Origin: a virus
Strand: one strand, 5' to 3'
IMG/VR virus record: IMGVR_UViG_3300030000_000036
Location: 1 to 29,778 of that record
Length of the DNA: 29,778 nucleotides
Shown: in pieces, positions 14,775 through 29,778 of the stretch
How positions within the stretch are numbered: the first letter of the stretch is position 1
Layout: each line of letters starts with the position of its first letter
Program-made: the position numbers and the translations under genes
Notes under the pieces: generated by a model
What the model was told of the DNA's origin: nothing
Database searches by the model: none
Seen by the model: the letters and a program-made list of their open reading frames with translations, nothing else

Positions 14775-14926
14775 AAAGAAACAACAACCAACCTCTAGAA
14801 AAGGGTCATACGTAGCGAAACGACGGGCCTCGAATTACCCCCTAGGGGGCGGTACGTCCGGGAGTACCTTTTTGGAAAAGCGCAAGACTTTTCGTAGATT
14901 TTTCGATCTTTTTTTTCATGGCCTCA
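14775..14926. other. Noncoding stretch upstream of terminase: candidate cos/packaging region
   Basis: There is no convincing gene in these 152 bases. They contain a perfect palindrome CCCCCTAGGGGG (14838-14849), a neighbouring GGTAC...GTACC inverted repeat (14850-14868), and an A/T-rich segment with repeated TTTTCG (14889-14908) ending in eight T. Its place just upstream of the small terminase gene in the direction of transcription matches where cos lies in lambda. The cleavage position cannot be read from this alone. Confidence 0.4.
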
Positions 14927-15649
14927 TCACTTCGCTGTGAGCACCGCCGCCGTCATTGCCAGCTCAGCCTCGACAGGCAGTCGAGCCGATACGATCCGAT
15001 CAGCGATGCCGTAGAAGTCGAACAGCGAGCCATACGACGGGTCTTTACCGAACGCGAACAACATGTTGATTGAGCCGCCTTTCTTGCCGACCCTTTCAGC
15101 AATACCCAGCGCACCACTACCTTTGCCCAAGACAAAGAAGCGGCGTTGATTGCCAGCACTGCGCCTGCTGTCGGTACTGTTCGAATGCTTATCGCCTTGA
15201 GCGCCGAGACCCGAAAGAATCTTTTGCAGCTGGCCGCGACTGATGTTGCCGTGAGCATCCAACTTCATGCCCGCCCCAGGCATAAGCGACTTACCCGAGG
15301 GCAGCAGGCCACGCGCGGCGAATAGCGATTCACTGCGCTTACGTGGCCGAGCGCCACCCATCACCTCGGGCATAAGCCATTTGGTAGGGGCCGCGCCCTT
15401 AGACGCGTAATCCTTCACGCCCAGTCGAGCCTCAAGGCGCCCTTTCTTGGCGAACTTGATAAACAGGCTGTTGAGCGTGAACTTGGTGGGCCGGTCGAAA
15501 GCGGCTTTCATGGCCGCTATCTCGGCGTCCCTTGCCTGCTCTGCCGTCTTGTTGAGGGCAGTAGCAAGGGCGAACGGCAATTGCCGCTGCTCAAGGTCGG
15601 ACAACTTACGGCTCAGCAAGGCCGCGCCTTGCGTGGATATTCTCAACAC
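14927..15649 (-). CDS. Minor tail protein Z (gpZ)-like
   Basis: A 240-aa basic protein. The N-terminal part has the pattern LPFALATALNKTAEQARDAEIAAMKAAFDRPTKFTLNSLFIK, followed by EARLGVKDYASKGAAPTKWLMPEVMGGARPRKRSE, which resembles the gpZ family (lambda gpZ is 192 aa). gpZ acts late in tail completion. The C-terminal half carries Lys/Gly-rich loops and FFVLGKGSGALGIAERVGKKGG. It is unusual to find it ahead of the terminase rather than among tail genes. The start ATG at 15649 follows 12 bases after the noncoding gap. The 3' end abuts the candidate cos region. Confidence 0.68.
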   Translation of the reverse strand: MLRISTQGAALLSRKLSDLEQRQLPFALATALNKTAEQARDAEIAAMKAAFDRPTKFTLNSLFIKFAKKGRLEARLGVKDYASKGAAPTKWLMPEVMGGARPRKRSESLFAARGLLPSGKSLMPGAGMKLDAHGNISRGQLQKILSGLGAQGDKHSNSTDSRRSAGNQRRFFVLGKGSGALGIAERVGKKGGSINMLFAFGKDPSYGSLFDFYGIADRIVSARLPVEAELAMTAAVLTAK

Positions 15650-15853
15650 GGGGCGACCTCGCTAACCAATGAATGACTGCCGGTTACGTCTCCGGCGTCC
15701 GTGCTGCAGGACCGCACTAGGGGCACACAGGGCCGCTGTCGGGGCCAGTAGCAAACTGGCGCACTCCGGGTCGGTATTCAGGTACACCGCCGACCATCGC
15801 ACCCGTTCTTTCGTGTGGCTCAACGCCCCTTTACGGCCGGGGAGGCCTGCGAA
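15650..15853 (-). other. Gap of about 200 bases with three hairpins; weak 53-aa TTG ORF
   Basis: Hairpins are visible at 15679-15696 (GCCGG/CCGGC, with GAC/GTC outside) and 15744-15760 (GCCAGT/ACTGGC), and a GGCC/GGCC pair lies near 15837-15849. A TTG-started frame from 15823 to 15662 (53 aa) is open and lies in the same frame as the preceding 129-aa gene beyond its TAG. It has only AAAGGGG two bases before the TTG, which is poor spacing. I therefore list it as structured noncoding sequence with an uncertain ORF. Confidence 0.3.
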
Positions 15854-16243
15854 CTACTTCATATCAAAACCTCCCAGCGCCCAGATCACACCCACCACAA
15901 TGGCAAAACCGTAAAAGGTCACAAAAGGCCACCAGCGGCGCTGCTGAATAAACCGCGCTGGCTGGGTGGTTGGCGGCGGCTCTGGCGGTCCCGGCTCCGG
16001 CGTCCACTCACTCAACGACCTTGGATCATGGAACATCACAAGATCAACAATGGCGCGGGGCGCGCTGCGATTCTGAGAGTAATCCACTCCTAGAACCTGT
16101 ACGCGCTCCACCTTGACATTGGGCGCAGCCAGGTCGAACTCAGAAGCTTTAGCCGCAGCCTCGGACAGCAGTGCGTTAAGCTCGGGACCTTCCAAAATGC
16201 ATCGCACCGAAGTGAGATTGGTTCGATTTGGAATGACTTTCAT
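15854..16243 (-). CDS. Phage protein of unknown function with C-terminal membrane segment
   Basis: A 129-aa protein. The soluble N-terminal part (1-80) alternates strands and helices (LTSVRCILEGPELNALLSEAAAKASEFD, VKVERVQVLGVDY). A Pro-rich linker (PEPGPPEPPPTTQP) leads to a C-terminal membrane segment (about 108-126, WPFVTFYGFAIVVGVIWAL). The topology is N-in or N-out tail-anchored. The gene follows the 130-aa gene with a nearly identical ribosome site (GAGGGTTTGAG). The position near holin suggests a lysis-cassette or virion-release link, but that is only context. Confidence 0.65.
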   Translation of the reverse strand: MKVIPNRTNLTSVRCILEGPELNALLSEAAAKASEFDLAAPNVKVERVQVLGVDYSQNRSAPRAIVDLVMFHDPRSLSEWTPEPGPPEPPPTTQPARFIQQRRWWPFVTFYGFAIVVGVIWALGGFDMK

Positions 16244-16255
16244 CTCAAACCCTCG

Positions 16256-16648
16256 TTAACCGCGCTCTACCGACTGGCGATGATCCATCAAGCCCTGAAT
16301 CTGCGCGGCGATGGATGCGGCGCATTCAGGCGTCGCGCCTGTGATGCTGATCGTGCCAATGGTGACAGTCGGCGGCAGATCAACCGCGAAGGCCTCACCG
16401 GGAGCCAGATCAGTAACGACCGATTTCAACAGCTCCACAGACGCCGCAGGCGCTGCCAGCACGCGACTGGCATCGGCCGAAACCACGCAGGTGTCAGGGG
16501 GAAAGTGCGCGGTCAAGTTGTTGGACTCATCGCGGAAGTTAACGCCCTGCTCGGTAATGCAAAAACAAGCGGCCACTACCGTGGTGCGCGAAAGCAAATC
16601 ACCAAACACAACAAAACTTTTCAGCGGGTGTTTTTGCTGATCGTTCAT
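16256..16648 (-). CDS. Phage protein of unknown function in the lysis region
   Basis: A 130-aa protein with an SFVVFGDLLSRTTVVAACFCITEQGVNF start, then mixed beta and Ala-rich helical segments; four Cys. There is no signal peptide or membrane segment that I can be sure of (the early CFCI stretch is only weakly hydrophobic). The ATG overlaps the stop of the 42-aa gene (ATGA), and the ribosome site GAGG lies 7 bases upstream. No family recognised. It is part of a tight run holin, 42-aa, 130-aa, 129-aa. Confidence 0.6.
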   Translation of the reverse strand: MNDQQKHPLKSFVVFGDLLSRTTVVAACFCITEQGVNFRDESNNLTAHFPPDTCVVSADASRVLAAPAASVELLKSVVTDLAPGEAFAVDLPPTVTIGTISITGATPECAASIAAQIQGLMDHRQSVERG

Positions 16649-16773
16649 TTCAAACCCTCGTTATGCGTAACGGCCGAGACCTGACAGGCCTCAGACTCTC
16701 GACAATCCACATGCCCCATGAAGGCGTAAGCCAGCAGAAGCACCAACAACGTCACCAGCGGCCGGCAACTCAC
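16645..16773 (-). CDS. Small membrane or secreted protein, 42 aa
   Basis: A GTG-started frame of 42 aa that fits exactly between two genes: its GTG overlaps the holin stop (GTGA), and its stop overlaps the next ATG (ATGA). The N-terminal half is a hydrophobic segment, PLVTLLVLLLAYAFMG, followed by a short tail with three Cys in the protein (HVDCRESEAC). It is too short to be listed by usual gene finders, but the double start-stop coupling and hydrophobic pattern support it. A single-span lysis accessory (spanin-like or holin partner) is possible; there is no lipobox that I can defend. Confidence 0.65.
   Translation of the reverse strand: MSCRPLVTLLVLLLAYAFMGHVDCRESEACQVSAVTHNEGLK
16660..16671. 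repeat. 12-bp palindrome GTTATGCGTAAC
   Basis: One mismatch pair from perfect symmetry. It lies near the 3' end of the 42-aa gene, directly upstream of the ribosome site of the 130-aa gene. It is a member of the GTTAYNNGTAAC family. Confidence 0.6.
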
Positions 16774-17096
16774 AGCGCATCCGCCTTTTTCTCAGCCCAG
16801 CGACGGCCGAGCTGGCGAACCCACTCGACGCCGAGAATCCCGACAAACCCGGCGACGGCGTAGGACAGCCCGCCACCCATGCCGAACTTCTCGGCACCGA
16901 CACCGACCAGGAACACCAGCACACCACCCAGCGACGCCTCAATCAGGCGTCGATCCCATCGCGGCTCTTTGTCGTCGTAAAGAATGCGCAGATAGCTCAG
17001 ACCGAAAGCCAGCAAGCCGGCAAAACCGTGATCCTTGAGGGCTGCAATGACAATGACCCAGAAAGTCGGGTCTTTTTCTGGGGGCATGGTCGGCAT
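16770..17096 (-). CDS. Holin, lambda family
   Basis: A 108-aa membrane protein starting MPTMPPEKDP. It has FWVIVIAALKDHGFAGLLAFGLSYLRIL (first membrane region), a charged DDKEPRWDRR loop, a second segment (GGVLVFLVGVGAEKFG) and a third (SYAVAGFVGILGVEWV), ending in a basic tail. This is the pattern of lambda-family phage holins (the HP1/P2-like type, not lambda S itself). Holins set lysis timing by opening the inner membrane. ATG 17096 was chosen because GGAG lies at good distance. A second in-frame ATG at residue 4 could give a dual-start product, as in lambda S. It is the first gene after the leader terminator. Confidence 0.85.
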   Translation of the reverse strand: MPTMPPEKDPTFWVIVIAALKDHGFAGLLAFGLSYLRILYDDKEPRWDRRLIEASLGGVLVFLVGVGAEKFGMGGGLSYAVAGFVGILGVEWVRQLGRRWAEKKADAL

Positions 17097-17129
17097 CTCG
17101 TTTTCTCCCGAAGCACGGGGAATAGGCAT

Positions 17130-17316: not shown

Positions 17317-17775
17317 TCACAACGCCAGGGCGATCTCCGACCGCGCCAGAAGGCACCGCGACTCACGCCCCCAAGTGCCGCCGCAGCCCCGTGGCAGCTC
17401 CTTCTGACAGTTTTTGCAAAGCCGCCCGGCCAACTTGCCCTGCTCATGCCGCAACCGCTTCACGTCGTTACGGATCAGCGTTTTGATGTACTCGGTTGTT
17501 GTGTACGGCTCACCCTGAGAGCCCCGGCCCGCGCGGCGTTCGTCCAGCTCGGCGCGCTCGTACGGGCTAAATTTCAGTTCCAACACCTCAACCCCGGCCG
17601 CCTTTTCGCGTTCGCGCTGCTCGCGCTTGCGCTGAGCCTCGGGGCTCAGGTCGCTTTCATCCTCGCCGTGACGTGTCACAAGCCCGCTTTCCTCGGTCAG
17701 CTCGACGCACGCCTCGATAGTGGCTGCGAGTTTTTCGGTCTGGTCGTACCGCTCCAGGGCGCTTTTGGTGCTCAT
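17317..17775 (-). CDS. Unknown phage protein with C-terminal CxxC motif
   Basis: A 152-aa hydrophilic protein. It has a helical N-terminus, a highly charged middle (LSPEAQRKREQREREKAAG, about 62-80), then VLELKFSPYERAELDERRA with a YTTTEYIKTLIRNDVKRL helix pair, resembling a ribbon-helix-helix-type pattern. A possible zinc site follows (LCKNCQKELPRGC). A DNA-binding role is plausible but unproven. The ribosome site is GAGGAT before the ATG. It sits 37 bases after the integrase stop and 70 bases before the late promoter. It is also the last gene of the leftward early operon, if that operon reads through. Confidence 0.65.
   Translation of the reverse strand: MSTKSALERYDQTEKLAATIEACVELTEESGLVTRHGEDESDLSPEAQRKREQREREKAAGVEVLELKFSPYERAELDERRAGRGSQGEPYTTTEYIKTLIRNDVKRLRHEQGKLAGRLCKNCQKELPRGCGGTWGRESRCLLARSEIALAL
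17668..17679. repeat. GTGACGTGTCAC, near-palindrome inside the 152-aa gene
   Basis: A one-mismatch relative of GTGACGCGTCAC, inside coding sequence. Recorded for completeness; another relative (GTGACACGTCAC) lies at 10307-10318 in the capsid fusion gene. Both may be chance. Confidence 0.3.
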
Positions 17776-17812: not shown

Positions 17813-19081
17813 CTAGGCCAGCCAGCCGGCGGGGTCCAGGGCAACCGGCTTAACGGCGCGTCTTGCTCCTGTCTTGTCGTGCAACACGTCAAAGCCCTGC
17901 GCATCGAGCCAGGCGTGCCAGCGCTCCAGGGCGTTGCGTTTGAGGACTTCCCCACGCGATTGGAAGTAGGTCGCCTCTAGATCCGTCAGGGAATGATTGA
18001 GCAGCAGCTTGGCCACAAGACCGTCCACGTCCAGTTCGCCCCAGGTGGTCCGGGCCAGTTTGCGCAGGTCGTGACTGGTCCACTCGCCGGCGCCGAACTG
18101 GGTAAAGATGGCAAAGGCATGGCTACGGGACATCGGTCGGCCGGAACGCGCAGACGATGGGAACAGATAGGCCCCGTCATAGCCCTGGGCCTGCTGCTGG
18201 TCTCGGTGACGCTGCAGAAAGGCCACGGCTTGCGGGGTCAGCGGCAACAGGTGGTCGCGGTGGGATTTGGTGTCGAGTGCCGGTATGAACCACTCCCCCG
18301 CGTCCAGATGGATGTTTTTCCACTTGGCCAAGCGGGTTTCGGTGATGCGGGTCGCATGGGCCAGCATCATCACCAGCAGCGCCACGGCCGCCGGATCACG
18401 CGCGAAGCCATCGGCCCAAGCGGCCAGCAGATCGACCACGGCCACATGTCGCAAGCGCGCGCCCTTAGGCCTGATCCTGGCCTTGGTGAAGTGCTTAAAG
18501 GTCAACTCTTTGACCGGGTTGACGGTGACCTTCTTCAGCTCCAGGGCAGCACCAAACACCACCTTGAGCACGTCCAGCACCGACTTGACATAAGACAGGC
18601 TGTATTCGGCTTGCATGTGCCGGATCAGGTGGCAATCAAGGGTGTCGGCATTGAGTTTGCTCAGGTGCAGCTCGCCCAAGGCAGGCAACAGCTGGCACTT
18701 GATGGCCGACAACGTCGAGCCTCGGCGACTCTTAGACAGGCTGTTATCGGTCCTCAGGCGCTCGGCGTACCACTCCAGCACCTGGCCGACGCGCTCCCAG
18801 CCATCCACCGTGGCCGATGCCGCCGGATCAGCCAGCAGCCGAGCATGGACCACCGGCAAACTGTCGAGCATGACCCGGGCCGGCACGTCGGGCCAGTTGG
18901 CCGCCTTTCTCCACTTGGCGCCGCCGTCATAGCGCACCAGATACCAGCTGCCTTTGCTGCGTTCGTTACGGTAACGAAAGCGCAGCGGGTGCCGGGGGTC
19001 TTTCAGCTCGCCAATGCTCGGATCACCGGCATAGCGCTTAATGACGGCATCGGAGATTTGGACTTGTAGGGTTTGTGCCAT
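17813..19081 (-). CDS. int: Tyrosine recombinase / phage integrase
   Basis: A 422-aa integrase. The N-terminal part (~1-90) is an arm-binding type domain with FRYRNERSKGSWYLVRYDGGAKWRK. The core-binding domain is ~95-200. The catalytic domain has Arg245 (HATRITETRLAKW), Lys272 (DTKSHRDHLLPL), His337 and Arg340 (TSHDLRKLART), His363 (LLNHSLTD) and Tyr372 (ATYFQSR), so all residues of the active site are present. It catalyses site-specific integration and excision. The ATG follows GAGG with spacing 7. It lies in the middle of phage genes, not at an end, which is unusual (see findings). The nearby 133-base intergenic region is the obvious place to look for attP. Confidence 0.95.
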   Translation of the reverse strand: MAQTLQVQISDAVIKRYAGDPSIGELKDPRHPLRFRYRNERSKGSWYLVRYDGGAKWRKAANWPDVPARVMLDSLPVVHARLLADPAASATVDGWERVGQVLEWYAERLRTDNSLSKSRRGSTLSAIKCQLLPALGELHLSKLNADTLDCHLIRHMQAEYSLSYVKSVLDVLKVVFGAALELKKVTVNPVKELTFKHFTKARIRPKGARLRHVAVVDLLAAWADGFARDPAAVALLVMMLAHATRITETRLAKWKNIHLDAGEWFIPALDTKSHRDHLLPLTPQAVAFLQRHRDQQQAQGYDGAYLFPSSARSGRPMSRSHAFAIFTQFGAGEWTSHDLRKLARTTWGELDVDGLVAKLLLNHSLTDLEATYFQSRGEVLKRNALERWHAWLDAQGFDVLHDKTGARRAVKPVALDPAGWLA

Positions 19082-19214
19082 GTACGGGCCTCACTGGTGC
19101 CCACGGCCGGGCCGGCGGGCGGCGTTGTCTTTCTTCAGGCAAAGCGAACCCACAGGCGATACTTCGCCTCACTCGCTTTTGATGGGTTAGAACCTTGTTA
19201 TGCGTAACGCGACG
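19082..19214. other. Intergenic region before int, with a two-tier hairpin; possible attP
   Basis: No gene seen. A composite hairpin is made of AAAGCGA (19141-19147)/TCGCTTT (19173-19179) outside and AGGCGA (19154-19159)/TCGCCT (19164-19169) inside. A palindrome follows at 19197-19208. The region ends in the integrase ribosome site. It could hold a leader, a terminator before int, or attP with arm sites; no tRNA-like end is visible. Confidence 0.4.
19197..19208. repeat. 12-bp palindrome GTTATGCGTAAC, 6 nt after a stop codon
   Basis: Identical to the sites at 16660 and 21075. It lies exactly 6 bases downstream of the stop of the 46-aa gene. Confidence 0.65.
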
Positions 19215-19355
19215 TCAGTAGCTTTCGACTTCAGCGGTAGGCCAAATTACCCGGGCGGCACTCAAAGCATCGGCTTCGGTACAGGGTGGGCACAGCATTG
19301 GAAACGCGGCATAGCCCGGCACTCGGACCAGCCATGCCCCGCGCAAAATCGGCAT
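19215..19355 (-). CDS. Small phage protein with CPPC motif, 46 aa
   Basis: A 46-aa protein starting MPILRGAWLV, with GYAAFPMLCPPCTEADAL and a C-terminal SAARVIWPTAEVE. It was found by reading the frames: its ATG shares a base with the stop of the 103-aa gene (TGATG). The Cys-Pro-Pro-Cys pair and the 'ARVIWPTAEVE' ending match short proteins that I recall from Pseudomonas prophages, function unknown. It is below usual length cut-offs and overlaps other frames that are not coding. The palindrome begins 6 bases after its stop. Confidence 0.7.
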   Translation of the reverse strand: MPILRGAWLVRVPGYAAFPMLCPPCTEADALSAARVIWPTAEVESY

Positions 19356-19666
19356 CAGCTACCGGCCGCCTCAGATGCCAGATCGCCCGCCCCGGTATAG
19401 CCAAGCCCTTCATGAAGGCAGACCTCGGCAAAGGCCGTCAGCGGCTTAACAAACAGCAGGCAGTGCGCGCCCGGCGCGTCCCAGCCACCGGCATAATGAA
19501 AGCCGGCCAGATCCTCACCGGACAACTGACGTTGCCGATGTTCGGGCGACAGACATGCAGGCAGTGCACCCCGGGCGCATTCGGCGTGCACGGCAAAACC
19601 CAGGGCCTGACCGACCGCATACAGGTTGGCACCGGAAAACCCGGCAAAAAGTGGGTGCATGCTCAT
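19355..19666 (-). CDS. Unknown small phage protein
   Basis: A 103-aa protein starting MSMHPLFAGFSGANLYAVGQALGFAVHAEC, then a stretch with SGEDLAGFHYAGGWDAPGAHCLLFV and a helical region ending LHEGLGYTGAGDLA. There is no clear motif. Its ATG overlaps the stop of the Q-like gene (ATGA) and its stop overlaps the 46-aa gene, so it belongs to a coupled set. No family recognised. The low complexity of the N-terminus (Ala/Gly/Phe) makes a domain assignment unsafe. Confidence 0.62.
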   Translation of the reverse strand: MSMHPLFAGFSGANLYAVGQALGFAVHAECARGALPACLSPEHRQRQLSGEDLAGFHYAGGWDAPGAHCLLFVKPLTAFAEVCLHEGLGYTGAGDLASEAAGS

Positions 19667-20088
19667 GTGATCCCCAGCAACGTTTGAATGGTGTCGCGCG
19701 CTTCAGCCAGACGACTGCGATAGGTTCTCAGGCTCACGCCCAGGGCTTCGGCCTTCTCAAACTGGCCGATACCCTCCTGCTCATAACTGGCGATGTTTCG
19801 ACGAATAACCACCGACCACCAGTTAGCGCCGTACTCCAGGCGCAACACGTCAGCACGCAACGGATGGGCGACAAACATGCTGTACACCGCCGCCTCGATC
19901 ATGCTTTCCAAACCATCGACCGGCCCGCTGACTGGGCCTGAGCCACCGAAAAAAATCTCACCTTTGTTGTCGATGAGCTTGGCCAGCATTGATTTACCGC
20001 CGGCCGTTCCAACGCTCTCCGGCCAGCTCCAGCGCGCCCAAAGCTCAAGGGCCTGATCGAGACGGTTATTGTTTTTGCGCCTTGCCAT
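19663..20088 (-). CDS. Late antiterminator, phage-82 Q-like
   Basis: A 141-aa protein. It has LDQALELWARWSW at the start, GLESMIEAAVYSMF and LRADVLRLEYGANW in the middle, and a C-terminal helix-turn-helix-like stretch EKAEALGVSLRTYRSRLAEARDTIQTLL (about 110-138). This order (helical W-x-RW start, IE-A segment, LRLEY, sigma-region-4-like C-terminus) matches the Q82-type antitermination family. Such proteins bind at a late promoter and modify RNA polymerase so that it ignores terminators. A late promoter with a leader terminator lies 2.5 kb downstream, in the same direction. The ATG follows a good purine-rich ribosome site. Confidence 0.8.
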   Translation of the reverse strand: MARRKNNNRLDQALELWARWSWPESVGTAGGKSMLAKLIDNKGEIFFGGSGPVSGPVDGLESMIEAAVYSMFVAHPLRADVLRLEYGANWWSVVIRRNIASYEQEGIGQFEKAEALGVSLRTYRSRLAEARDTIQTLLGIT

Positions 20089-20104
20089 ACCGCCCCTCCC
20101 CTTT

Positions 20105-20320
20105 TTAGCCGCCGGCTTCGGGCGTTAACTTGTAGCCATTGCGCTGGCCTTTTTTGCAGGACGGAAAGGTCAAGCCGCTGGTGCAGACCGGCAGGTCAAA
20201 CAGGTACTCCACTCGCTGACACACCGCACAACCCAAGGTACGCAACTGCTGCACCTCGACGATCTTGGCCGGGTCGCCGTAGGCATACCTCGGCAAGGCC
20301 GGACTATCGCGCAGGGCCAT
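20105..20320 (-). CDS. Cys-rich small phage protein
   Basis: A 71-aa protein starting MALRDSPALPRYAYGDPAKIVEVQQL. It then has LGCAVCQRVEYLF and CTSGLTFPSCKKGQRNGYKL, an arrangement of four Cys suited to a small zinc ribbon. Proteins of this shape precede Q-like genes in Pseudomonas phages; the role is unknown. The start at 20320 lies inside the end of the preceding gene (17 bases overlap). The longer upstream frame would run deep into that gene and has an unlikely Arg/Trp-rich sequence. Confidence 0.72.
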   Translation of the reverse strand: MALRDSPALPRYAYGDPAKIVEVQQLRTLGCAVCQRVEYLFDLPVCTSGLTFPSCKKGQRNGYKLTPEAGG

Positions 20321-20768
20321 CGGCCAGATCCTCCAGCATTGCGCGCACCGACCCACTGCGCGCCAGATAGGCCAGCAGCGCCTCAGACAGCGCCTCCATC
20401 GGTTCGCGAACGTGGGCAAAGCCCTTCTGTCCATCGGTCACCATCAGGTCGCCCCGGCGAATGCTCACCACGCTGGACGGGCGGCTGTACAGGTGCCAAA
20501 CAAATCCACCACGGCGGCGGATTTCGGCGGCCTCCAGCTCACTCAAACAGTGCGCGACAATCACGCCTTCGACGGCCGAGCGCTCAGCCGCGGCGTCGGT
20601 TGGACCGTCGAGAAAGGCCTGCAGAATCTCGACGCGGCGCGACGGGTAATCCGCGCTTGGCGTGGCCTGGGCATAGGCCGCCAAAGGCCCCTTGCCGGAA
20701 CTGACGAGGCGGTCGGCTATTTCCAGGCGCTCTTTTGGATAGCCGCCAGACAGTGCAATCAATAACAA
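20304..20768 (-). CDS. P-loop-kinase-like protein with degenerate Walker A
   Basis: A 154-aa protein starting (TTG) MLLIALSGGYPKERLEIADRLVS. The first strand and helix look like an adenylate/dNMP-kinase-type fold, but the phosphate-binding loop lacks the GxxGxGK(S/T) signature: SGGYPKE has no GKS or GKT. Further on, RVEILQAFLDGPTD and VIVAHCLSELEAAEIRRRGGFVWHLYSRPSS resemble the strand/helix pattern of these kinases. Catalytic activity is doubtful. GAGGGG lies 7-8 bases before the TTG start. It overlaps the Cys-rich protein gene. Confidence 0.6.
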   Translation of the reverse strand: MLLIALSGGYPKERLEIADRLVSSGKGPLAAYAQATPSADYPSRRVEILQAFLDGPTDAAAERSAVEGVIVAHCLSELEAAEIRRRGGFVWHLYSRPSSVVSIRRGDLMVTDGQKGFAHVREPMEALSEALLAYLARSGSVRAMLEDLADGPAR

Positions 20769-20791
20769 GGAAATTCCCCTCGGGCCGGCCG

Positions 20792-21358
20792 TCAGCGGCG
20801 AGCCACTTCTAATTTTTCTTTGCGCACAGTCTTCAGAAAGTTATGCAGGTTCGGCGGCGTGAGCCCCGCACCCGCTTTCATTGCCAGCTCTATGGCGGCA
20901 TTCATCTCGTCAATCGTGACGTTCGTTGCGCACCAGTGGCGGAACAAAGACTGGTTGTAAGGGTCTTTGCCATGGTGCGCCGGCATGCTCAGTTCGGCGG
21001 CCAACCATTGGCACCACTCATTGGCGACCTTGGGCAGCTGTGAGGCCGGAACAAATCCACCCGGGTCAGCCAGCGTTATGCGTAACGGTGCGCCCGGCTC
21101 GGGGCTTTGCTCCACGGACAAAAAACCGTCCGCCGCCACATAGGTGAGGAACACATTCAGCTCAAGCGGGCCGACCTGCAAAGCGTCACGCCAGTCACTG
21201 GCCGGCAGCTCGATAACCCCTAAGGCATGGTCAGGGCTGGAAGACAGCAGCTCCAGCAACTTGATGAGGCGAGCAAAGCCCGGCAGGCCGAAACGCTGCT
21301 CGACCTTGAGGACGATCGGCAGTGAAGAGAAATTGATAGGGAGATTAAGCGACGCCAT
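20792..21358 (-). CDS. Putative phage replication protein, DUF4373/DnaT-like
   Basis: A 188-aa protein. The N-terminus has LKVEQRFGLPGFARLIKLLELLS (about 18-40), the pattern of the winged-helix DUF4373-type domain found in phage replication proteins. The C-terminus has PYNQSLFRHWCATNVTIDEMNAAIELAMKAGAGLTPPNLHNFLKTVR (~130-180), like the DnaD/DnaT-type module that loads helicase. No helicase gene or Walker motif is present here, so it probably recruits a host helicase. This is the only candidate replication initiator in the window. It contains a GTTATGCGTAAC palindrome at 21075-21086 in coding sequence. Confidence 0.68.
   Translation of the reverse strand: MASLNLPINFSSLPIVLKVEQRFGLPGFARLIKLLELLSSSPDHALGVIELPASDWRDALQVGPLELNVFLTYVAADGFLSVEQSPEPGAPLRITLADPGGFVPASQLPKVANEWCQWLAAELSMPAHHGKDPYNQSLFRHWCATNVTIDEMNAAIELAMKAGAGLTPPNLHNFLKTVRKEKLEVARR
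21075..21086. repeat. 12-bp palindrome GTTATGCGTAAC inside the replication gene
   Basis: Third exact copy of this sequence. It encodes Leu-Arg-Ile-Thr on the minus strand, so it may serve as a site inside the gene or occur by chance. Confidence 0.5.
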
Positions 21359-21361
21359 GCT

Positions 21362-21610
21362 TCACCCCCCGGCCTTCAGCAGCTTGCGGGCGAATGGCGC
21401 AAAAATACCGTTCCAATCAACGGCACCTTCAGACAGCAAAATGATGTTCATGCAGGACGTTAGGCGTGGCATGCGCTCTTTGCGATACCAGGCGGCTACG
21501 GTGCGCGGGTTTTCACCCAGCAGACTGGCTACCAGGCGCAGGCGGGCTAGGCTCACCCTTCCCGGTGGCTCGGCATCGCCGATGGTTTCAATCCACTGGT
21601 TCAGTTCCAC
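21362..21610 (-). CDS. Cro-like early regulator
   Basis: An 82-aa protein starting (GTG) VELNQWIETIGD. It has a helix-turn-helix-like region, LARLRLVASLLGENPRTVAAWYRKERMP (about 23-50), then LLSEGAVDWNGIFAPFARKL. It lies divergent from the CI-like repressor and starts the leftward early operon, the usual place of Cro. I placed the start at 21610 because the longer GTG at 21628 falls inside the operator palindrome and has no ribosome site. The stop is followed 3 bases later by the replication gene start. Confidence 0.75.
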   Translation of the reverse strand: MELNQWIETIGDAEPPGRVSLARLRLVASLLGENPRTVAAWYRKERMPRLTSCMNIILLSEGAVDWNGIFAPFARKLLKAGG

Positions 21611-21626
21611 AAATAGACACTCTTTC

Positions 21627-21670
21627 ACACGATTCGTGTAAGTCTATTTCCAGATCCACCAAACCTTCAA
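21627..21670 (-). promoter_or_regulatory. Leftward early promoter with overlapping operator
   Basis: Minus-strand -35 TTGAAG (21670-21665), 18-base spacer and -10 TAGACT (21646-21641). The operator ACAC-GATTC-GTGT (21627-21639), a perfect 13-bp palindrome, covers about -5 to +8, so a bound repressor would block initiation. It drives the Cro-like, replication and Q operon. Confidence 0.62.
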
Positions 21671-21686
21671 GCTTTTTTTCTTGTGC

Positions 21687-21705
21687 TATACACTTAATGT
21701 GTATA
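21687..21705. promoter_or_regulatory. Operator TATACAC-TTAAT-GTGTATA
   Basis: A perfect 7-bp inverted repeat around 5 bases, 74 bases before the repressor ATG. Same ACAC-N5-GTGT core as the other immunity operators; probably the site for repressor autoregulation. A plain -10-like GATAAT lies downstream at 21721-21726. Confidence 0.7.
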
Positions 21706-21778
21706 TTTCTTCGGGTTACAGATAATATTCATCAATTGACAAGGTGTGGCCATCACGGCGCCCATTGAGAGATTGCGC

Positions 21779-22444
21779 ATGTCCGAATTATCAACAATTG
21801 TTTCCGGCCGCTTAAGGCAGTGCCGACTCCAGGCTGGCTGGACGCAGGTCGGAACGGCGGAACGCCTCAACTCTTTATCGGGTCAGTCGATCACCAAATC
21901 GGCGTACTCGAACTGGGAGCTTGGCCTACGTATGCCACTCCCCGAACAAATCATTCATCTGGCCAAATTATTTGGAAAGCCACCCGCCTGGATTCAGGGC
22001 TTTACTGAAAATGACAGTTTGGGGGCCATATCCGCTAATTATGTGACTGCCAACACCCCTAACATATCCACCAAGACGGGCCTGCTGCCGGTCACGCAAG
22101 CCACGGACTCAACGGCTTATAGCCTGGAGTATCTAGCGGGTCGTGGACTTAACAAGAACAAACTACTGTCCATCCTCCAGCTCGATACCAGCATGCACGG
22201 AGTCATAGAAGAAGGTGACGAGGTATTGCTCGACGGCGACTCGACCGAGGTACGCGGCGCCGGCCTGTTTGGCATCGTTGTCTCAGGTCTGATCTGGATA
22301 CGCTGGATACGCCCGGAAATGGGCGACACCTTTACCTTGTGGGCCGAGGATCGGGAAAACTACCCGCCGAAAACCCTGACCCGCGAAGAGCTGGACGAAC
22401 TGGATATTGTCGGACGCGTGGTCCGTGTCGCCCACGACAGATAA
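21779..22444 (+). CDS. CI-like lysogeny repressor (XRE + S24-like domain)
   Basis: A 221-aa repressor. The N-terminal helix-turn-helix is about residues 8-55 (RLRQCRLQAGWTQVGTAERL, then SAYSNWELGL). The C-terminal half resembles LexA/CI self-cleaving domains, with Ser138 in DTSMHGVIEEGDEVLLD. The position of the catalytic Lys (normally in VKRL) reads LIWIRWI, with Arg175, so cleavage may not occur. No Ala-Gly is visible in the linker. It sits in the immunity region with its operators. ATG 21779 was chosen; a GTG at 21746 would add 11 residues without the usual spacing. Family call is secure, inducibility is not. Confidence 0.88.
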   Translation: MSELSTIVSGRLRQCRLQAGWTQVGTAERLNSLSGQSITKSAYSNWELGLRMPLPEQIIHLAKLFGKPPAWIQGFTENDSLGAISANYVTANTPNISTKTGLLPVTQATDSTAYSLEYLAGRGLNKNKLLSILQLDTSMHGVIEEGDEVLLDGDSTEVRGAGLFGIVVSGLIWIRWIRPEMGDTFTLWAEDRENYPPKTLTREELDELDIVGRVVRVAHDR

Positions 22445-22485
22445 AAAGTAAGCCCTTGATCCGAGGCCTTTTCTATTGTTGCAAT

Positions 22486-22502
22486 TTACACTTTACGTGT
22501 AA
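22486..22502. promoter_or_regulatory. Operator TTACAC-TTTAC-GTGTAA upstream of rightward early genes
   Basis: A perfect inverted repeat of 6 bp around 5 bases, 34 bases before the start of the 81-aa gene. It shares the ACAC-N5-GTGT core with 21627 and 21687. I do not see a convincing -35/-10 pair to place the promoter exactly. Confidence 0.66.
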
Positions 22503-22536
22503 CATCACACGCAACTTAGGAAAGGCAGGGTTCACC

Positions 22537-22782
22537 ATGCAGCAAGGTAGCAATCAAATCGTCAGCGCCGCGACTCCCGGTGGGCTCGCGCAACCGCAGC
22601 AGGCGGCGTGGTATCAGGCCGTGCAGGAAATTGGCGCCATGTGCTCCGGCATTCAGCATATTTCCAGGTACTGCGCCGATCAGGGGCATGTGACCCAAGA
22701 TCACATTGAACAGATTGCGGCGCTATCGAGTGTCATGCACCGACACCTGGCTACTCTCGGCAGCGCGATTGCTGACCACTGA
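22537..22782 (+). CDS. Unknown early protein, 81 aa
   Basis: A mostly helical 81-aa protein, with GGLAQPQQAAWYQAVQEIGAMCSGIQHISRYCADQG and a final helix QIAALSSVMHRHLATLGSAIADH. Two Cys. It is the first rightward gene after the operator, so an early regulatory or establishment role is likely. Only the frame from the ATG at 22537 is credible; the upstream open sequence overlaps the repressor. The ribosome site is GGCAGGG. Nothing similar is recognised. Confidence 0.6.
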   Translation: MQQGSNQIVSAATPGGLAQPQQAAWYQAVQEIGAMCSGIQHISRYCADQGHVTQDHIEQIAALSSVMHRHLATLGSAIADH

Positions 22783-22819
22783 TTCCCCCCTCTTCATCCA
22801 TCGCAAGGAAGCGTCCCCC

Positions 22820-23236
22820 ATGAATGCCCGCGCTCAGATCCACGGCGAGGAAGTCATCGGCTACCCCGGCCAGAACCTCACGGACCACGAGCTGTTTGTT
22901 CTGGTCAAAACCGCCGAGGGCTTTCCCACACCCGTAATCGCCGCTGAATTGCACATTGACGACGTCGGCATGCGTTTGGTGGAGCGCAATATCTTGAGCA
23001 AGCTAGGCGCCAAGAACAAAGCGCACATGATCACGCGCGGCTTCACCTTGGGTGTTCTGGTTCCGCAAGCGCTGTGCGTCATGCTCTGCATGATCGCCGC
23101 CTTGGAAATCGACACCGACTTCAATCGTCCACGCTCCCAGCGCCGTAGCCGCACCCTCACCGAATTTTCGCGCAGCGTACGCACCTCCCCGGCTTCGGCC
23201 GGCGGCCCGCCCTCCAAGCAAATTCTCTACGTCTGA
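22820..23236 (+). CDS. LuxR-type helix-turn-helix regulator
   Basis: A 138-aa protein starting MNARAQIHGEE. The DNA-binding segment (about 25-80) has LTDHELFVLVKTAEGFPTPVIAAELHIDD and VERNILSKLGAKNKAHMITRGFTLGVL, the LuxR C-terminal pattern. There is no receiver or ligand-binding domain. A hydrophobic stretch ALCVMLCMIAALEI (~90-103) follows, then an Arg/Ser-rich tail. Such HTH-only proteins occur in Pseudomonas phages. The start is preceded by AAGGAAG. Its stop is followed by the partition repeats, so it may co-regulate the par region, but that is inference. Confidence 0.72.
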   Translation: MNARAQIHGEEVIGYPGQNLTDHELFVLVKTAEGFPTPVIAAELHIDDVGMRLVERNILSKLGAKNKAHMITRGFTLGVLVPQALCVMLCMIAALEIDTDFNRPRSQRRSRTLTEFSRSVRTSPASAGGPPSKQILYV

Positions 23237-23240
23237 CCAA

Positions 23241-23272
23241 TTCGTTATTTCGTTATTTCGTTAAATCGTTAT
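23241..23272. repeat. parS: Partition-site array A: four 8-bp repeats TTCGTTAW
   Basis: Four direct octamers with 8-bp period: TTCGTTAT, TTCGTTAT, TTCGTTAA and ATCGTTAT. They precede the parA promoter. Binding by the ParG-like protein is inferred from the layout, which is like type Ib partition operator/centromere arrays. Confidence 0.8.
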
Positions 23273-23276
23273 TTTC

Positions 23277-23305
23277 TTGATCCTCGGCATGGGGCGGCCT
23301 ATACT
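23277..23305 (+). promoter_or_regulatory. parA promoter
   Basis: -35 TTGATC (23277-23282), 17-base spacer, -10 TATACT (23300-23305). It lies between two octamer arrays in opposite orientation, which suggests autoregulation of the par operon. Confidence 0.78.
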
Positions 23306-23315
23306 CGCCCATACG

Positions 23316-23347
23316 TTAACGAATTAACGAAATGACGAATTAACGAA
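23316..23347. repeat. Partition-site array B: four inverted octamers TTAACGAA
   Basis: TTAACGAA, TTAACGAA, ATGACGAA and TTAACGAA with exact 8-bp period; this is the reverse complement of the motif in array A. It covers the start of the par transcript, a typical operator position. Confidence 0.8.
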
Positions 23348-23364
23348 ATAAGGGAATTCTCACC

Positions 23365-24012
23365 GTGGCTTTGAAAATTGGCTTTGCAACTCAAAAGGGT
23401 GGCCCTGGCAAATCCACCGACGCACGCGGCACAGCTGTCGGCTTCGCGCAAAACGGCTGGGCAGTGAAAGTCGCCGACTTTGATCTCAACCAATCCACTT
23501 GCACCCGATGGCATCAACGCCGCCTGCAGCGCGGTCACCAACCTGAAGTATCGGTCGAACAGTTCGGCTCTGTTGCTCATGCGCTCAGCCGGGCCGACGA
23601 TTATGACGTGATGATCTTCGACGGCGCACCGCGCGCCAGTAAGGACACCGCCGCGATGGCAGAAGCGTGTGACCTGCTGGTTATCCCAACCGGCCTATCG
23701 GTTGACGACCTCGACCCGGCTGTCGAGCTGGCCGACGCGCTGCACTACAAGCATGGAATCCCCGTTGAGCGCATCGCGTTCGCCTTGAACCACGTCGGCG
23801 ACAGCTTGGCCGAACTGGAAGAGGCTCAAGAGTATTTGAGTCAGAAGCCCTATCACGTTCTGGCCGGCTACCTGCCGCAAAAAGTCAGCTATAGCCGCGC
23901 CATGGACGTTGGCTTGTCGGTGATTGAGGTTTCACACAAGGGGCTGCGCGCCCAGGCCGAACAGCTAATTAGCGCGATCATCCAGCGGGCGACTGCGCTA
24001 CAATCCAAGTAA
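23365..24012 (+). CDS. parA: ParA-type partition ATPase
   Basis: A 215-aa ParA without an N-terminal helix-turn-helix, hence a type Ib form. It has a deviant Walker A KGGPGKST (residues 11-18), a Walker A' region VKVADFDLNQST and a Walker B DYDVMIFDGAP, then LLVIPTGLSVDDL and a C-terminal AQAEQLISAIIQ. ParA uses ATP to move plasmid DNA through ParB-type complexes on the nucleoid. The start is GTG; AAGGG lies upstream. The stop TAA falls inside the next octamer array. The parA/parG pair with octamer operators is rare in a phage context and suggests plasmid-like maintenance. Confidence 0.93.
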   Translation: MALKIGFATQKGGPGKSTDARGTAVGFAQNGWAVKVADFDLNQSTCTRWHQRRLQRGHQPEVSVEQFGSVAHALSRADDYDVMIFDGAPRASKDTAAMAEACDLLVIPTGLSVDDLDPAVELADALHYKHGIPVERIAFALNHVGDSLAELEEAQEYLSQKPYHVLAGYLPQKVSYSRAMDVGLSVIEVSHKGLRAQAEQLISAIIQRATALQSK

Positions 24013-24032
24013 CGAATTGACGAATTAACGAA
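24009..24032. repeat. Partition-site array C: three octamers between parA and parG-like
   Basis: GTAACGAA, TTGACGAA and TTAACGAA with 8-bp period. They start inside the parA stop region and end 17 bases before the parG-like start. Confidence 0.75.
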
Positions 24033-24049
24033 TTAAAGGAAACTGCGCA

Positions 24050-24313
24050 ATGACTGTCGACGCCCCAAAACCACCCAAGCGCAAACCCTCTACCAAGGGC
24101 ACGGCGCCGGCTTCACCACTGGCGGCCGAAGCATTGGCCAAGGCTGGCCATACGACCCAAGCCGCACCCGAAGAACTGGTGACCGCTAACTTCAAGGTCG
24201 ACGCCGCGTTCAAGCATGAATTAAAGATGTTCGCCGCCATGCATAAAATGAGCATGGTCGACGTGCTGCGACAAGGTTATGCCTTGCTTAAGGAAGCCAA
24301 GGGCGGAAAGTGA
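24050..24313 (+). CDS. ParG-like partition DNA-binding protein
   Basis: An 87-aa protein. The N-terminal half is flexible and basic (PKPPKRKPSTKGTAPASP). The C-terminal half has the ribbon-helix-helix pattern ELVTANFKVDAAFKHELKMFAAMHKMSMVDVLRQGYALL (about 42-80). This is the layout of ParG/ParB-type centromere binders of type Ib systems. It probably binds the octamer arrays and stimulates ParA. The ribosome site AAGGA is well placed. It is followed by a strong terminator. Confidence 0.85.
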   Translation: MTVDAPKPPKRKPSTKGTAPASPLAAEALAKAGHTTQAAPEELVTANFKVDAAFKHELKMFAAMHKMSMVDVLRQGYALLKEAKGGK

Positions 24314-24970: not shown

Positions 24971-25602
24971 TATTTGCCCTCGACCAATTCATCAGCCGTT
25001 ACGCCGAAGAACTGCGCACCGAACAGCTGCACGCCCTCACGCCAGCGGGGCAACAGACGGCGGCGAGCAGCCCCGGCAGACTGGACCAGCTGCCGGCGGT
25101 AAGGGGCCACCTCGGCCGCGCTCAGGCCCATGGCTTGCAGCCGGGCCAACAGCGACTCAATGAACCAAGCGTGATGCTGTATCTGCGCCAGACTGTCGAG
25201 CGCAGCAAACTGATCCAGCTCGCCAATCAAGCCGCAGGCCCACGCGTGTCGCTGCGACACCGTGGGCACCGGCAGATCCGCCCAGGCGCGCGCCCTGACG
25301 CGGTAGATACGAAAGGAATACGCGTCGCCCTCCTTGGCGTAGCGGGCCGCGACCCGTCGCTTCCAGTGCCCACGCACCACCCCTTGACCCTCCAGCTCGA
25401 TCAGCAGCCAGCGCGCCCGATTCAGGCCGATGCCAAAGCGGCGCTTCAGCGCCCCGGGACCGGTGAACCGCCGCGCCGCGACAAAGCGCGTCACCGCTGG
25501 CAACAGCGGATCGGACCAGGCCACGCCGCGCGGGGCCGTGTGGCCGATGGGTGCGTAATGGATCGGCAGCGCCTGGAAGTCCTGCAGGATGGGGCCGCTC
25601 AT
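24970..25602 (-). CDS. Protein with a stand-alone FtsK-gamma-like winged helix
   Basis: A 210-aa protein. Residues ~35-80 (AVTRFVAARRFTGPGALKRRFGIGLNRARWLLIELEGQGVV) match the winged-helix gamma domain of FtsK/SpoIIIE, in particular RRF/IG-x-NRA and the LE-x-x-GVV turn. The motor domain is absent. A longer C-terminal part (~95-205) has no known motif. DNA binding is likely; the target is unknown. It is located between the two paralogues and overlaps both (ATGA and TAATG). It may regulate the operon or help segregation beside parA. Confidence 0.65.
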   Translation of the reverse strand: MSGPILQDFQALPIHYAPIGHTAPRGVAWSDPLLPAVTRFVAARRFTGPGALKRRFGIGLNRARWLLIELEGQGVVRGHWKRRVAARYAKEGDAYSFRIYRVRARAWADLPVPTVSQRHAWACGLIGELDQFAALDSLAQIQHHAWFIESLLARLQAMGLSAAEVAPYRRQLVQSAGAARRRLLPRWREGVQLFGAQFFGVTADELVEGK

Positions 25603-25871: not shown

Positions 25872-26182
25872 TGGTCGTCGTCCTCGTCCTCGTGCAGCTC
25901 GATGGACTCGCCGCCGTCCTCAATGATGGCCAGCGCCGCGTCGTCGAACAGGTGATGTAACGGCGTCGCGCCCTGCTCGTCTTCGCGCAGCAGCTGCGCG
26001 ACCAGTTCGGTGACAAAGCGCGGCCGGTTGACGATGGTGGCCGCCGCCATGCCATCGCCCTGGACCGGCCATTGGTCACCCATGGTCACCGAATGACAGA
26101 GGGTGTCGACGTGGATACGAATCACCAGTTCGTCACCCTCACGGGCCACGCTCGGCAGGATCAAGTCAGGGGTAGTCGTCAT
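25868..26182 (-). CDS. Unknown acidic protein
   Basis: A 104-aa protein starting MTTTPDLILPSVAREGDELVIRIHVDTLCHSVTMGDQW. It continues RFVTELVAQLLREDEQGATPLHHLFDDAALAIIEDG and ends in a run of Asp/Glu (HEDEDDDQ). The start was set at ATG 26182 because AAGGAG is ideally placed and it sits in the duplicated leader block; a longer frame upstream reads through another gene. No family recognised. Confidence 0.65.
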   Translation of the reverse strand: MTTTPDLILPSVAREGDELVIRIHVDTLCHSVTMGDQWPVQGDGMAAATIVNRPRFVTELVAQLLREDEQGATPLHHLFDDAALAIIEDGGESIELHEDEDDDQ

Positions 26183-26223: not shown

Positions 26224-26613
26224 GCCGGACTTGGCCAGAACAGCCGACTTCACACGCTCCGCCTCTAGCAGATCCTCGCCCTGCTGCGACAGCTCCCACA
26301 GCGCCGGGCTGCGCTGTACGCGGATCAGCAACCCCAATTGCGTCAGCAGGTCGAACCAGTGGCGGCCGATATCGGCGCCCTGGTTGTCCTCGGCGCACGC
26401 CCAAAAGCGCTGCAACTTGCTGACGACCTTGGTCGCAAACGGCGCCGGCTCGCCGACAAACTCGGCCTCCAGCAGCACCGCCGGATCGGCGACCTTGGCC
26501 ATGCGCGCGCACTCACGCGCCCATTCGTCGCGGGTGTAGCTGCCCGCGCCGTTCAACATGCGTTCCATCTTGCGGCTGAAGTAATCGACATCGAGGCCGT
26601 GGCTGTTTTTCAT
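26218..26613 (-). CDS. Unknown protein, 131 aa
   Basis: A 131-aa helical protein starting MKNSHGLDVDYFSRKMERMLNGAGSYTRDEWARECARMAKVADP. It has a wing-like C-terminal half LLTQLGLLIRVQRSPALWELSQQGEDLLEAERV, a pattern suggestive of a winged helix. The ribosome site is AAAAGGAG. Its stop lies inside the GTGACGCGTCAC palindrome. Possible DNA-binding protein, unproven. Confidence 0.6.
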   Translation of the reverse strand: MKNSHGLDVDYFSRKMERMLNGAGSYTRDEWARECARMAKVADPAVLLEAEFVGEPAPFATKVVSKLQRFWACAEDNQGADIGRHWFDLLTQLGLLIRVQRSPALWELSQQGEDLLEAERVKSAVLAKSGA

Positions 26614-26656
26614 CGCGTTGAATCTCCTTTTCTCAATGGGTTGTGACGCGTCACGC
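26614..26656. repeat. Duplicated leader block, copy 2, with GTGACGCGTCAC palindrome
   Basis: Palindrome at 26643-26654, six bases after the stop of the 88-aa gene, then TTGAGAAAAGGAG ribosome site. Pair of 26183-26223. Confidence 0.75.
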
Positions 26657-26660
26657 GGCG

Positions 26661-26927
26661 TTATTCGCCCCGTTGCCTCTCAGCCGGCTGGCCGGTCACC
26701 CGCGCCTGTATGGCGGCCCAGGTCGGCGTGTATTCCGGCCAGTCGCTTTCGATGACCAGACATTCGCGGCGTGGCAGATGGGCCAGCAGGGACAACATCG
26801 GTTCAACCAAGCTGCTGCGATAGCCGACCGGAACGTTTTCCAGGTCGCTGCACTTGATGACGATGTAGCGGTCTTCGCGCTGAAAGGGCGGGTGGGGCAT
26901 TTCGCTGTCGCGGGTGGGGTGTTCCAT
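26661..26927 (-). CDS. Unknown protein, 88 aa
   Basis: An 88-aa protein starting MEHPTRDSEMPHPPFQREDRYIVIKCSDL, then YRSSLVEPMLSLLAHLPRRECLVIESDWPEY and WAAIQARVTGQPAERQ. Beta strands IVIKC and CLVIESDWP suggest a small alpha/beta domain. The ribosome site AAGGAG is 11 bases from the ATG. The upstream 60 bases hold an operator-like palindrome. No family recognised. Confidence 0.62.
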   Translation of the reverse strand: MEHPTRDSEMPHPPFQREDRYIVIKCSDLENVPVGYRSSLVEPMLSLLAHLPRRECLVIESDWPEYTPTWAAIQARVTGQPAERQRGE

Positions 26928-26984
26928 GGCGGGCGGTTCTCCTTGGCGAGTGAGTGGCGGTGTGTGCGTAAAATCACTTTAAGC

Positions 26985-27004
26985 ATAAATGATATATCAC
27001 TTAT
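26985..27004. promoter_or_regulatory. Operator-like palindrome ATAAATGATATATCACTTAT
   Basis: A 20-bp inverted repeat with one mismatched pair. A related TCACTTTA half-site is 10 bases to the left (26974-26981). It sits upstream of the 88-aa gene operon and 100 bases after the XRE gene, so the XRE protein is a candidate binder. Confidence 0.55.
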
Positions 27005-27028
27005 GGCACTTCTGATTACCACAGGCGC

Positions 27029-27067
27029 AAAAAAAGACCCCCGGCAGACTCACATCTGACGGGGGTC
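27029..27067 (-). terminator. Terminator after the XRE gene
   Basis: GACCCCCG (27036-27043) pairs with CGGGGGTC (27060-27067). An inner CAGA/TCTG extends the stem, followed on the minus strand by seven T. Confidence 0.88.
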
Positions 27068-27083
27068 ATTGAACATATAACGC

Positions 27084-27095
27084 GTTATCCGTAAC
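27084..27095. repeat. 12-bp palindrome GTTATCCGTAAC, 7 nt after a stop codon
   Basis: It is extended on both sides by CGC, giving CGCGTTA-TCCG-TAACGCG. Located between the XRE stop and its terminator. Confidence 0.65.
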
Positions 27096-27102
27096 GCGCG
27101 GG

Positions 27103-27603
27103 TCACTCGCGCGCGGCGCGGGCCTCTTGCAGCGCCTGGGCGATTTCACCCGATAGGCGCTGTTCATCCTCACCGGTGATCGCCTCGACGGCATACAACG
27201 CCGCGACGTAGGCGATCGCATAGACCCGATTAAACTCAATGTCTTTATCCGTGCGCGCCGCGCGCAGGCTGTCGATTTGGTGGCGTGCCTCGCCCAGGGC
27301 GAAAGCGCGGGGGTTATTGGCGACCGGTTCCGGCGTGTCATGCTCAGGCATCCACAGCGCCGCCGGATCAATGCCTAGGACAACCGACAACGGCTCGACC
27401 ATGTCGCTCATGATGCCGCGCAAGCCCAGCTCCCAGTTGCTGCAAGTGCTCGCCAGGACTTTGGGATAACCCTGCGCCTGGATCAGCTGCGCGAGTTCGT
27501 TCAGGGTCAGCGACTTGGCCGCCCGAGCGGCGCGAATCACCTGGCCAATGCGGGTGACGTCTTCGGCGTATTGCTCAGAAGTGCGGCCGGCGGATGTGCT
27601 CAT
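27103..27603 (-). CDS. XRE-family transcriptional regulator
   Basis: A 166-aa protein starting MSTSAGRTSEQ. The helix-turn-helix is about residues 20-65: VIRAARAAKSLTLNELAQLIQAQG, then LASTCSNWELGLRG. The C-terminal helical part (~95-165) has DKDIEFNRVYAIAYVAALYAVEA, probably for dimerisation. The start at 27603 is preceded by AAGGAA; the longer frame would add ten residues without a ribosome site. It lies downstream of the Zn-finger gene and is followed by a terminator. It is a candidate for the palindrome at 26985-27004. Confidence 0.85.
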   Translation of the reverse strand: MSTSAGRTSEQYAEDVTRIGQVIRAARAAKSLTLNELAQLIQAQGYPKVLASTCSNWELGLRGIMSDMVEPLSVVLGIDPAALWMPEHDTPEPVANNPRAFALGEARHQIDSLRAARTDKDIEFNRVYAIAYVAALYAVEAITGEDEQRLSGEIAQALQEARAARE

Positions 27604-29201: not shown

Positions 29202-29221
29202 CGCGGGCACTCCATTGTGAA

Positions 29222-29240
29222 CCCCAGCCACTGGCTGGGG
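29222..29240. other. Perfect stem-loop between the 67-aa and 433-aa genes
   Basis: CCCCAGCC (29222-29229) and GGCTGGGG (29233-29240) around 3 bases. No T tract, so it is not a terminator; it may affect mRNA processing or translation of the 433-aa gene. Confidence 0.6.
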
Positions 29241-29452: not shown

Positions 29453-29515
29453 CGGGTCTGCTCCGGTGGTGGCCCTGGGTGAATCCCCCGGCCTTGGAGC
29501 AGACTTTAAAAACTT

Positions 29516-29775: not shown

Positions 29776-29778
29776 TCC

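Follow-up and report, generated by a model that had tools for sequence, protein, structure and literature searches.

An 'integrase' gene is often read as the mark of an integrating phage. Phage-plasmids are typically without integrases (PMC12977533). The Cluster A mycobacteriophage RedRock is temperate and is kept extrachromosomally by parABS (PMC7157519), and in P1 the Cre recombinase serves in multimer resolution, while P1-like phage-plasmids can become integrative prophages (PMC10879196). The element considered here is a viral sequence of 29,778 bases, the whole of IMG/VR record IMGVR_UViG_3300030000_000036 (the window), in which a tyrosine recombinase annotated as an integrase (422 aa; 17813-19081, minus strand) lies 4.3 kb from a parA/parG pair (23365-24313). 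It very probably belongs to a contractile-tailed temperate Pseudomonas phage of ~41 kb which as a prophage is a circular plasmid of low copy number and whose recombinase is not the integrase acting at the attachment (att) site. RedRock resembles this phage in its 8-bp direct repeats, which form its two parS loci, and RepA is present in some of its relatives; it differs in being actinobacterial, in having no integrase gene and in using a ParB-type centromere binder (PMC7157519). P1 likewise has a plasmid prophage and a tyrosine recombinase that plays no part in normal lysogenic integration (PMC10879196), but its genome is unrelated and Cre is of another family.

Closer systems are found among relatives with recombinases 56-81% identical to that of the window. 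Three of these are finished circular plasmids, pPL-38ph of P. lundensis (NZ_CP062157.2), pHN2 of Pseudomonas sp. HN2 (NZ_CP085886.1) and pPAC1.3b of P. aeruginosa, each of them with ParA and a phage gene set that looks complete, and each typed as non-mobilizable; the first two have the same gene order as the window phage, with recombinases 71-76% and TerL 63-74% identical. Eight viral contigs of 34-43 kb carry terminal repeats of 121-127 bp, a sign of circular assembly, and the ParA-bearing members in draft isolate genomes are stand-alone contigs of 32-40 kb, two of them with end overlaps of 77-95 bp and a third with ends that abut on the map of a relative. ParA is present in 25 of the 32 viral records that bear the recombinase, the recombinase is present in all 11 viral records chosen by ParA, and the two occur together across Pseudomonas, Aeromonas, Halomonas, Edwardsiella and Vibrio. 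The Vibrio member is a sequenced virion isolate, phage 10N.237.312.C11_PE002A (PQ189289), in which the recombinase (42%) is followed by a transcriptional regulator as in the window phage, ParA (49%) is accompanied by a small partner, and RepA stands at the corresponding place; it has, in contrast, a clear RepA_IncFII_LM (E 6e-85, far over the cut-off), a different host and diverged structural genes. A preliminary description of this DNA had proposed a candidate phage-plasmid, and the proposal is strongly supported by close relatives, which share the rep, par, repressor and structural genes and are finished circular plasmids or circular contigs. In those relatives the prophage is an extrachromosomal replicon, and the window element is judged by comparison with them; searches of the phage-plasmid literature returned no treatment of Pseudomonas members, and no paper on pPL-38ph by name.

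Two of the plasmid relatives have histories of their own. The 82-kb pHN2 sequence consists of two head-to-tail copies of a 41-kb phage-plasmid, 99.97% identical except for one 504-bp deletion, and may be either a biological dimer or an assembly artefact. In a P. aeruginosa relative (CP124676.1, 25562-32962) a Tn3-family transposon for mercury resistance has inserted into the tail sheath gene, and this phage-plasmid is therefore probably defective as a phage and kept as a plasmid.

The window itself is a truncated circle. A second record, IMGVR_UViG_3300028679_000005 (40,114 bases; hereafter G001), is the same phage: window 4471-29778 corresponds to G001 1-25308 at 99.996% identity, window 201-3641 to G001 36674-40114 at 94.7%, and the 11.4 kb between the right and left ends of the window are supplied by G001. 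This missing part contains the sheath, tube and tape measure genes that the window lacks, together with tail proteins, lysozyme and a candidate initiator of 292-330 aa; sheath, tube, tape measure and lysozyme lie past the left end of the window. The complete genome is ~41 kb, of which the window represents about three quarters. The preliminary description had proposed a check of the contig for circularity; no terminal repeat was found in the window record, which is hence not a closed circle, and the genes at its two ends form no in-frame junction because 11.4 kb are absent between them. The tail-fibre region (window 201-4471) is ~5% diverged between two records that are otherwise 99.996% identical, and ~0.8 kb (window 3642-4470) is absent from the ends of the G001 contig; the fibre region may have recombined recently. 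A search of GenBank gave no near-identical phage, and the window contains neither tRNA genes nor a match to Rfam.

The recombinase has every appearance of an intact enzyme. It matches Pfam Phage_integrase (E 3e-14) and the PHROG integrase family (E 5e-38), no PDB sequence match to its profile was found at E 0.001, and its catalytic residues (R245, K272, H337, R340, H363 and Y372) are kept in essentially all of 114 relatives, the one substitution affecting the second histidine. The dN/dS ratio is 0.15-0.22, and no internal stop occurs in the 32 viral records, all of which have an intact tyrosine recombinase; the lineage thus departs from the 'typically without integrase' trait of phage-plasmids, a trait that is typical and not strictly defining. 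To its left lie a phrog_536 transcriptional regulator (17317-17775, minus strand; PHROG match), holin, terminase, capsid and baseplate genes, and to its right an S24 repressor, a LuxR-like gene and a DUF4373-like gene. The order of recombinase, phrog_536-type regulator, and lysis and packaging genes recurs in the plasmid members and in the Vibrio relative, where the regulator again adjoins the recombinase, and in many chromosomal relatives the recombinase lies upstream of holin or terminase genes. Among relatives the C-terminal part of the regulator is conserved and its N-terminal part variable. The preliminary description had noted phage genes on both sides of the integrase, which is correct, an intact tyrosine recombinase being placed between late and immunity genes. 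Its argument from this mid-genome position is weak when taken alone, given that lambda-like virion maps also have a mid-genome int.

What separates the recombinase from att is the arrangement of the relatives that do integrate. Seven of the 32 viral records are without ParA, and the four of these that are at least 15 kb long all carry a second integrase (Int2), which occurs in none of the 25 ParA-bearing viral records, all at least 11 kb (Fisher P 4e-5). Int2 is found at tRNA-Ser solely in ParA-less relatives. In the prophage of Pseudomonas sp. Root71 (NZ_LMHY01000022.1), which shares late genes with the window phage and has a recombinase 80% identical to its own, integration is at tRNA-Ser with att repeats at 1585-1701 and 44058-44171; Int2 adjoins the left att, with the window-type recombinase 10.8 kb inside. 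A decayed 10-kb remnant (NZ_FYDL01000007) has Int2 ~0.1 kb from the left att and a truncated recombinase ~3 kb inside. More distantly, in seven chromosomal relatives, and in one with a split copy, the integrase found 110-210 bp from a tRNA or tmRNA gene is of the P4 type and includes an arm-binding domain, and the window-type recombinase (43-50% identical) is 5-7 kb further in; two more have an Int2-type gene beside a tRNA; in these ten the tRNA is assigned as the att site by position alone. The recombinase lies 5-9 kb inside in loci L110-L112, L117, L141, L155, L160, L162 and L177. In these loci the place beside att, which a tRNA-att integrase would occupy, is thus not that of the window-type recombinase.

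The Root71 prophage and its Int2 clade differ from the window phage also in what they lack, namely RepA, ParA, ParG, the octamer arrays described below, a 443-aa protein with no assigned function (27900-29231, minus strand; 29 rep/par records) and a DUF4373/DnaT-like protein (20792-21358, minus strand; 33 par+ records and no Int2+ record). A conserved leader of the recombinase (19082-19155, minus strand; CTTTGCCTGAAGAAAGACAAC...), present in most par+ members, is replaced in this clade. The Int2 members make up a single clade (100/99) of the recombinase tree, nested in the ParA+ group, which suggests, for one gene of a mosaic genome, that a plasmid ancestor turned integrative. The phage-plasmid state of the lineage, its module content and the separation of recombinase and att are in this way shown by comparison among genomes.

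These arrangements bear on two readings under which the recombinase would integrate. An ordinary integrative temperate phage, with a mid-genome integrase using an adjacent attP and with parA/parG as accessory genes, would account for the intact integrase homologue, for a map position shared with lambda-like phages and for the many chromosomal Pseudomonas prophages with a 43-50% identical recombinase; it is nonetheless very improbable, since ParA+ relatives at or above 56% identity stand by themselves as circles or contigs, a different integrase occupies the tRNA site in those chromosomal relatives for which it was located, the rep and par module is conserved, and the flanks of the recombinase in isolate G035 gave no chromosomal match of note. 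The second reading, that the phage is mostly an episome and that its recombinase can integrate at a short chromosomal core, is somewhat less improbable and still unlikely. Its recombinase is active-looking by its residues and under constraint, and to the eye, though by that means only, its N-terminal part looks like an arm-binding region; yet among relatives of at least 56% identity no copy integrated through this recombinase was found, and the integrating clade gained a second integrase despite having a window-type one. The preliminary description had suggested optional integration and had proposed a search for a duplicated core in the int flanks. The first of these is not supported by the relatives just described, and the second, carried out in G035 over 4 kb around the recombinase, a search that would miss short att cores, gave only a repeat ~1.2 kb downstream and chance matches. 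In the phage-plasmid of this isolate (L105), 53 bp downstream of the recombinase, at 12465-12518, are repeated at 80-94% in several chromosomal places of the host G035; this is possibly a REP-like element.

Given that the catalytic residues are kept and that dN/dS is ~0.2, the recombinase would therefore have a job other than tRNA integration. To judge from its distance to att in those chromosomal relatives where the site could be located, this is probably a job so far undescribed, most likely site-specific recombination acting on the circular DNA of the phage itself, for example in monomer maintenance. A specific form of this idea would have the recombinase resolve multimers of the plasmid prophage in the manner of Cre. 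It is kept with ParA in plasmid members across the five genera named above, and Cre has that role in P1; the recombinase is, however, also kept in integrated prophages, where plasmid dimers are irrelevant, pHN2 persists as an apparent dimer, and a by-eye search of the recombinase flanks identified no res or lox-like site. We regard a Cre-like resolvase as a serious possibility that falls short of an even chance.

The partition locus is of a recognizable type. ParA (23365-24012, plus strand) is a short protein of 215 aa that matches PHROG ParA (E 4e-33), has no N-terminal helix-turn-helix (HTH) and has TP228 ParF/ParA as its nearest solved structures (4dzz/5u1g, E 3e-7), as is characteristic of type Ib systems. 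The gene directly downstream, at a distance of 37 bp (24050-24313, plus strand), encodes a candidate ParG-like centromere-binding protein of 87 aa, which in structure prediction is a ribbon-helix-helix (RHH) protein with a disordered N-terminal tail and matches RHH proteins including ParG (1p94) at a modest Z of ~4; an RHH partner in this place also accords with type Ib.

Associated with these genes are arrays of at least three TTCGTYA units at 8-bp spacing, four of which occur in the window and none in 200 dinucleotide shuffles. Over the records, 81 arrays were counted at the 8-bp period, 14 at period 9 and 0-2 at periods 5, 7, 10 and 11. The first array (TTCGTTAT repeats; 23238-23271, plus strand) is upstream of parA, the second (AACGAATT repeats, inverted; 23316-23348, minus strand) directly before it, and the third (24010-24038, minus strand) between parA and parG. 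The type Ib pair and its octamers ~4 kb from the integrase, as reported in the preliminary description, are upheld by the PHROG match, the RHH partner and the shuffles; additional to that report are a fourth array outside the par locus (29514-29558, plus strand) and two more past the right end of the window, in G001. Members with the window's family of candidate RepA (family A) have arrays flanking the parA promoter, also between parA and parG, and three just downstream of repA (G001 25046-25084, 25533-25555 and 25918-25948), of which the fourth window array is the first. Two relatives have an array just upstream of the recombinase.

Members with the other family (family B), to which pPL-38ph and pHN2 belong, have a variant octamer, TTAGCTAA, chiefly at par, these two plasmids having this variant or none. 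In the ParG beta-strand the sequence is xxNFK where the octamers are of the TTCGTTA type and DLGFK where they are of the TTAGCTAA type, a pairing that is compatible with ParG as the octamer reader and is confounded by ancestry. RepA remains an alternative reader because the arrays follow RepA type even in G015 and G022, two genomes with divergent ParA. That the arrays recur at three sites near repA suggests a single regulator connecting partition and replication. A divergent ParA with no recognised ParG at the usual place is seen in pPL-38ph (2068-2724), G004, G021 and G026; in pPL-38ph, where it is unrelated to that of the window phage, and in G004 and G026 it lies beside repA, and in G021 ~7 kb from it. 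The partition system has apparently been replaced in these four genomes.

The preliminary description had found no standard plasmid Rep, which is an artefact of truncation: no Rep is seen in the window because the record is cut and the gene lies past its end. The candidate RepA is encoded at G001 26604-27596, in the missing 11.4 kb, and the Vibrio relative has its clear RepA there. Two candidate families occupy this position, A in 13 records including the window phage and B in 11. Family B has weak similarity to RepA_IncFII_LM. Family A gave no match to sequence families; its model has a winged-helix domain and a long C-terminal helix, at moderate confidence, and Foldseek returned generic winged helices for it, with no match at E < 0.001. 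The alignment between the two families is weak (E 0.003, probability 11%), and hhalign of both against the Vibrio RepA gave no meaningful match. We infer the Rep identity of this conserved winged-helix candidate chiefly from position, fold and conservation.

Several observations weigh against a plasmid prophage with a non-integrating, monomer-maintaining recombinase. The plasmid state is seen in relatives, the window element being known from sequence alone, and circular assembly is compatible alike with an episome and with packaged, circularised phage DNA. The RepA of the window lineage is without a family-level match, its fold being a generic winged helix. Of 80 chromosomal relatives, 67 lack a second integrase within 10 kb; these are uninformative, and their recombinase may serve as an integrase. 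The pHN2 dimer, if real, counts against efficient monomer resolution, and the by-eye search for a resolution site, while giving conserved blocks in the recombinase flanks, gave no convincing core.

The rest of the window accords with the gene set of a temperate phage (terminase, capsid, tail, lysis and repressor). Late genes for terminase, portal, a ClpP-capsid fusion, baseplate, tail fibre and holin occupy 152-17129 (minus strand), as assigned by annotation and by comparison with G001 and the plasmids. Profile matches identify a CI/LexA-like S24 repressor (21746-22444, plus strand) and a LuxR/sigma-like HTH protein upstream of parA (22820-23236, plus strand), and at the right end lies the C-terminal piece of a 138-aa gene (29536-29778, minus strand), cut by the window end and complete at G001 25066-25482. 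A 12-bp palindrome, GTTACGCGTAAC, occurs with close variants at window 14307, 16660, 19197, 21075, 27084 and 27882 and also at G001 31985 and 36605, giving six copies in the window and eight in G001 against 0.01 expected in shuffles; some lie in short intergenic gaps, in a stoperator-like manner. Most plasmid-type relatives have 4-10 copies per genome (pPAC1.3b has 1 and G030 has 3) and the integrating clade 0-2. The related palindromes GTGACAGGTCAC and GTGACGCGTCAC are in intergenic gaps of the right arm (window 24364, 26210 and 26643).

The roles we infer for RepA, ParG and the recombinase can be joined into a scheme for the plasmid prophage. The winged-helix RepA would start replication next to itself, and ParA of the ParF type with the ribbon-helix-helix ParG would act on the arrays at parA/parG and near repA, segregating copies and regulating their own expression, while the S24 repressor would keep the late genes off. 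The constrained recombinase would act on the circular or concatenated DNA of the phage, for example in keeping it monomeric, and would be retained in plasmid and integrating relatives alike without being used for tRNA-gene integration. A broader version is that the 'integrase' adjoining the late operon represents a widespread, separate class of non-integrating recombinases, kept through lifestyle switches and acting on their own genome, with a ParG-octamer regulon that joins partition, replication and, in some relatives, the recombinase; as a whole this is a tentative proposal and somewhat doubtful.

Phage-plasmids of this general kind are already known, and what is new is the retained non-att recombinase together with the dispersed arrays. 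The lineage shows that both common assumptions, about integrases as marks of integration and about phage-plasmids being without them, can fail, as an 'integrase' is conserved in plasmid prophages and is bypassed when relatives integrate. Within one Pseudomonas lineage a rep/par module and a tRNA-integrase module are cleanly exchanged, which amounts to a natural experiment on prophage lifestyle switching, and the dispersed octamer arrays allow a partition-replication regulon to be tested directly. In many Pseudomonas prophages, the homologues labelled 'site-specific integrase' may have to be re-annotated.

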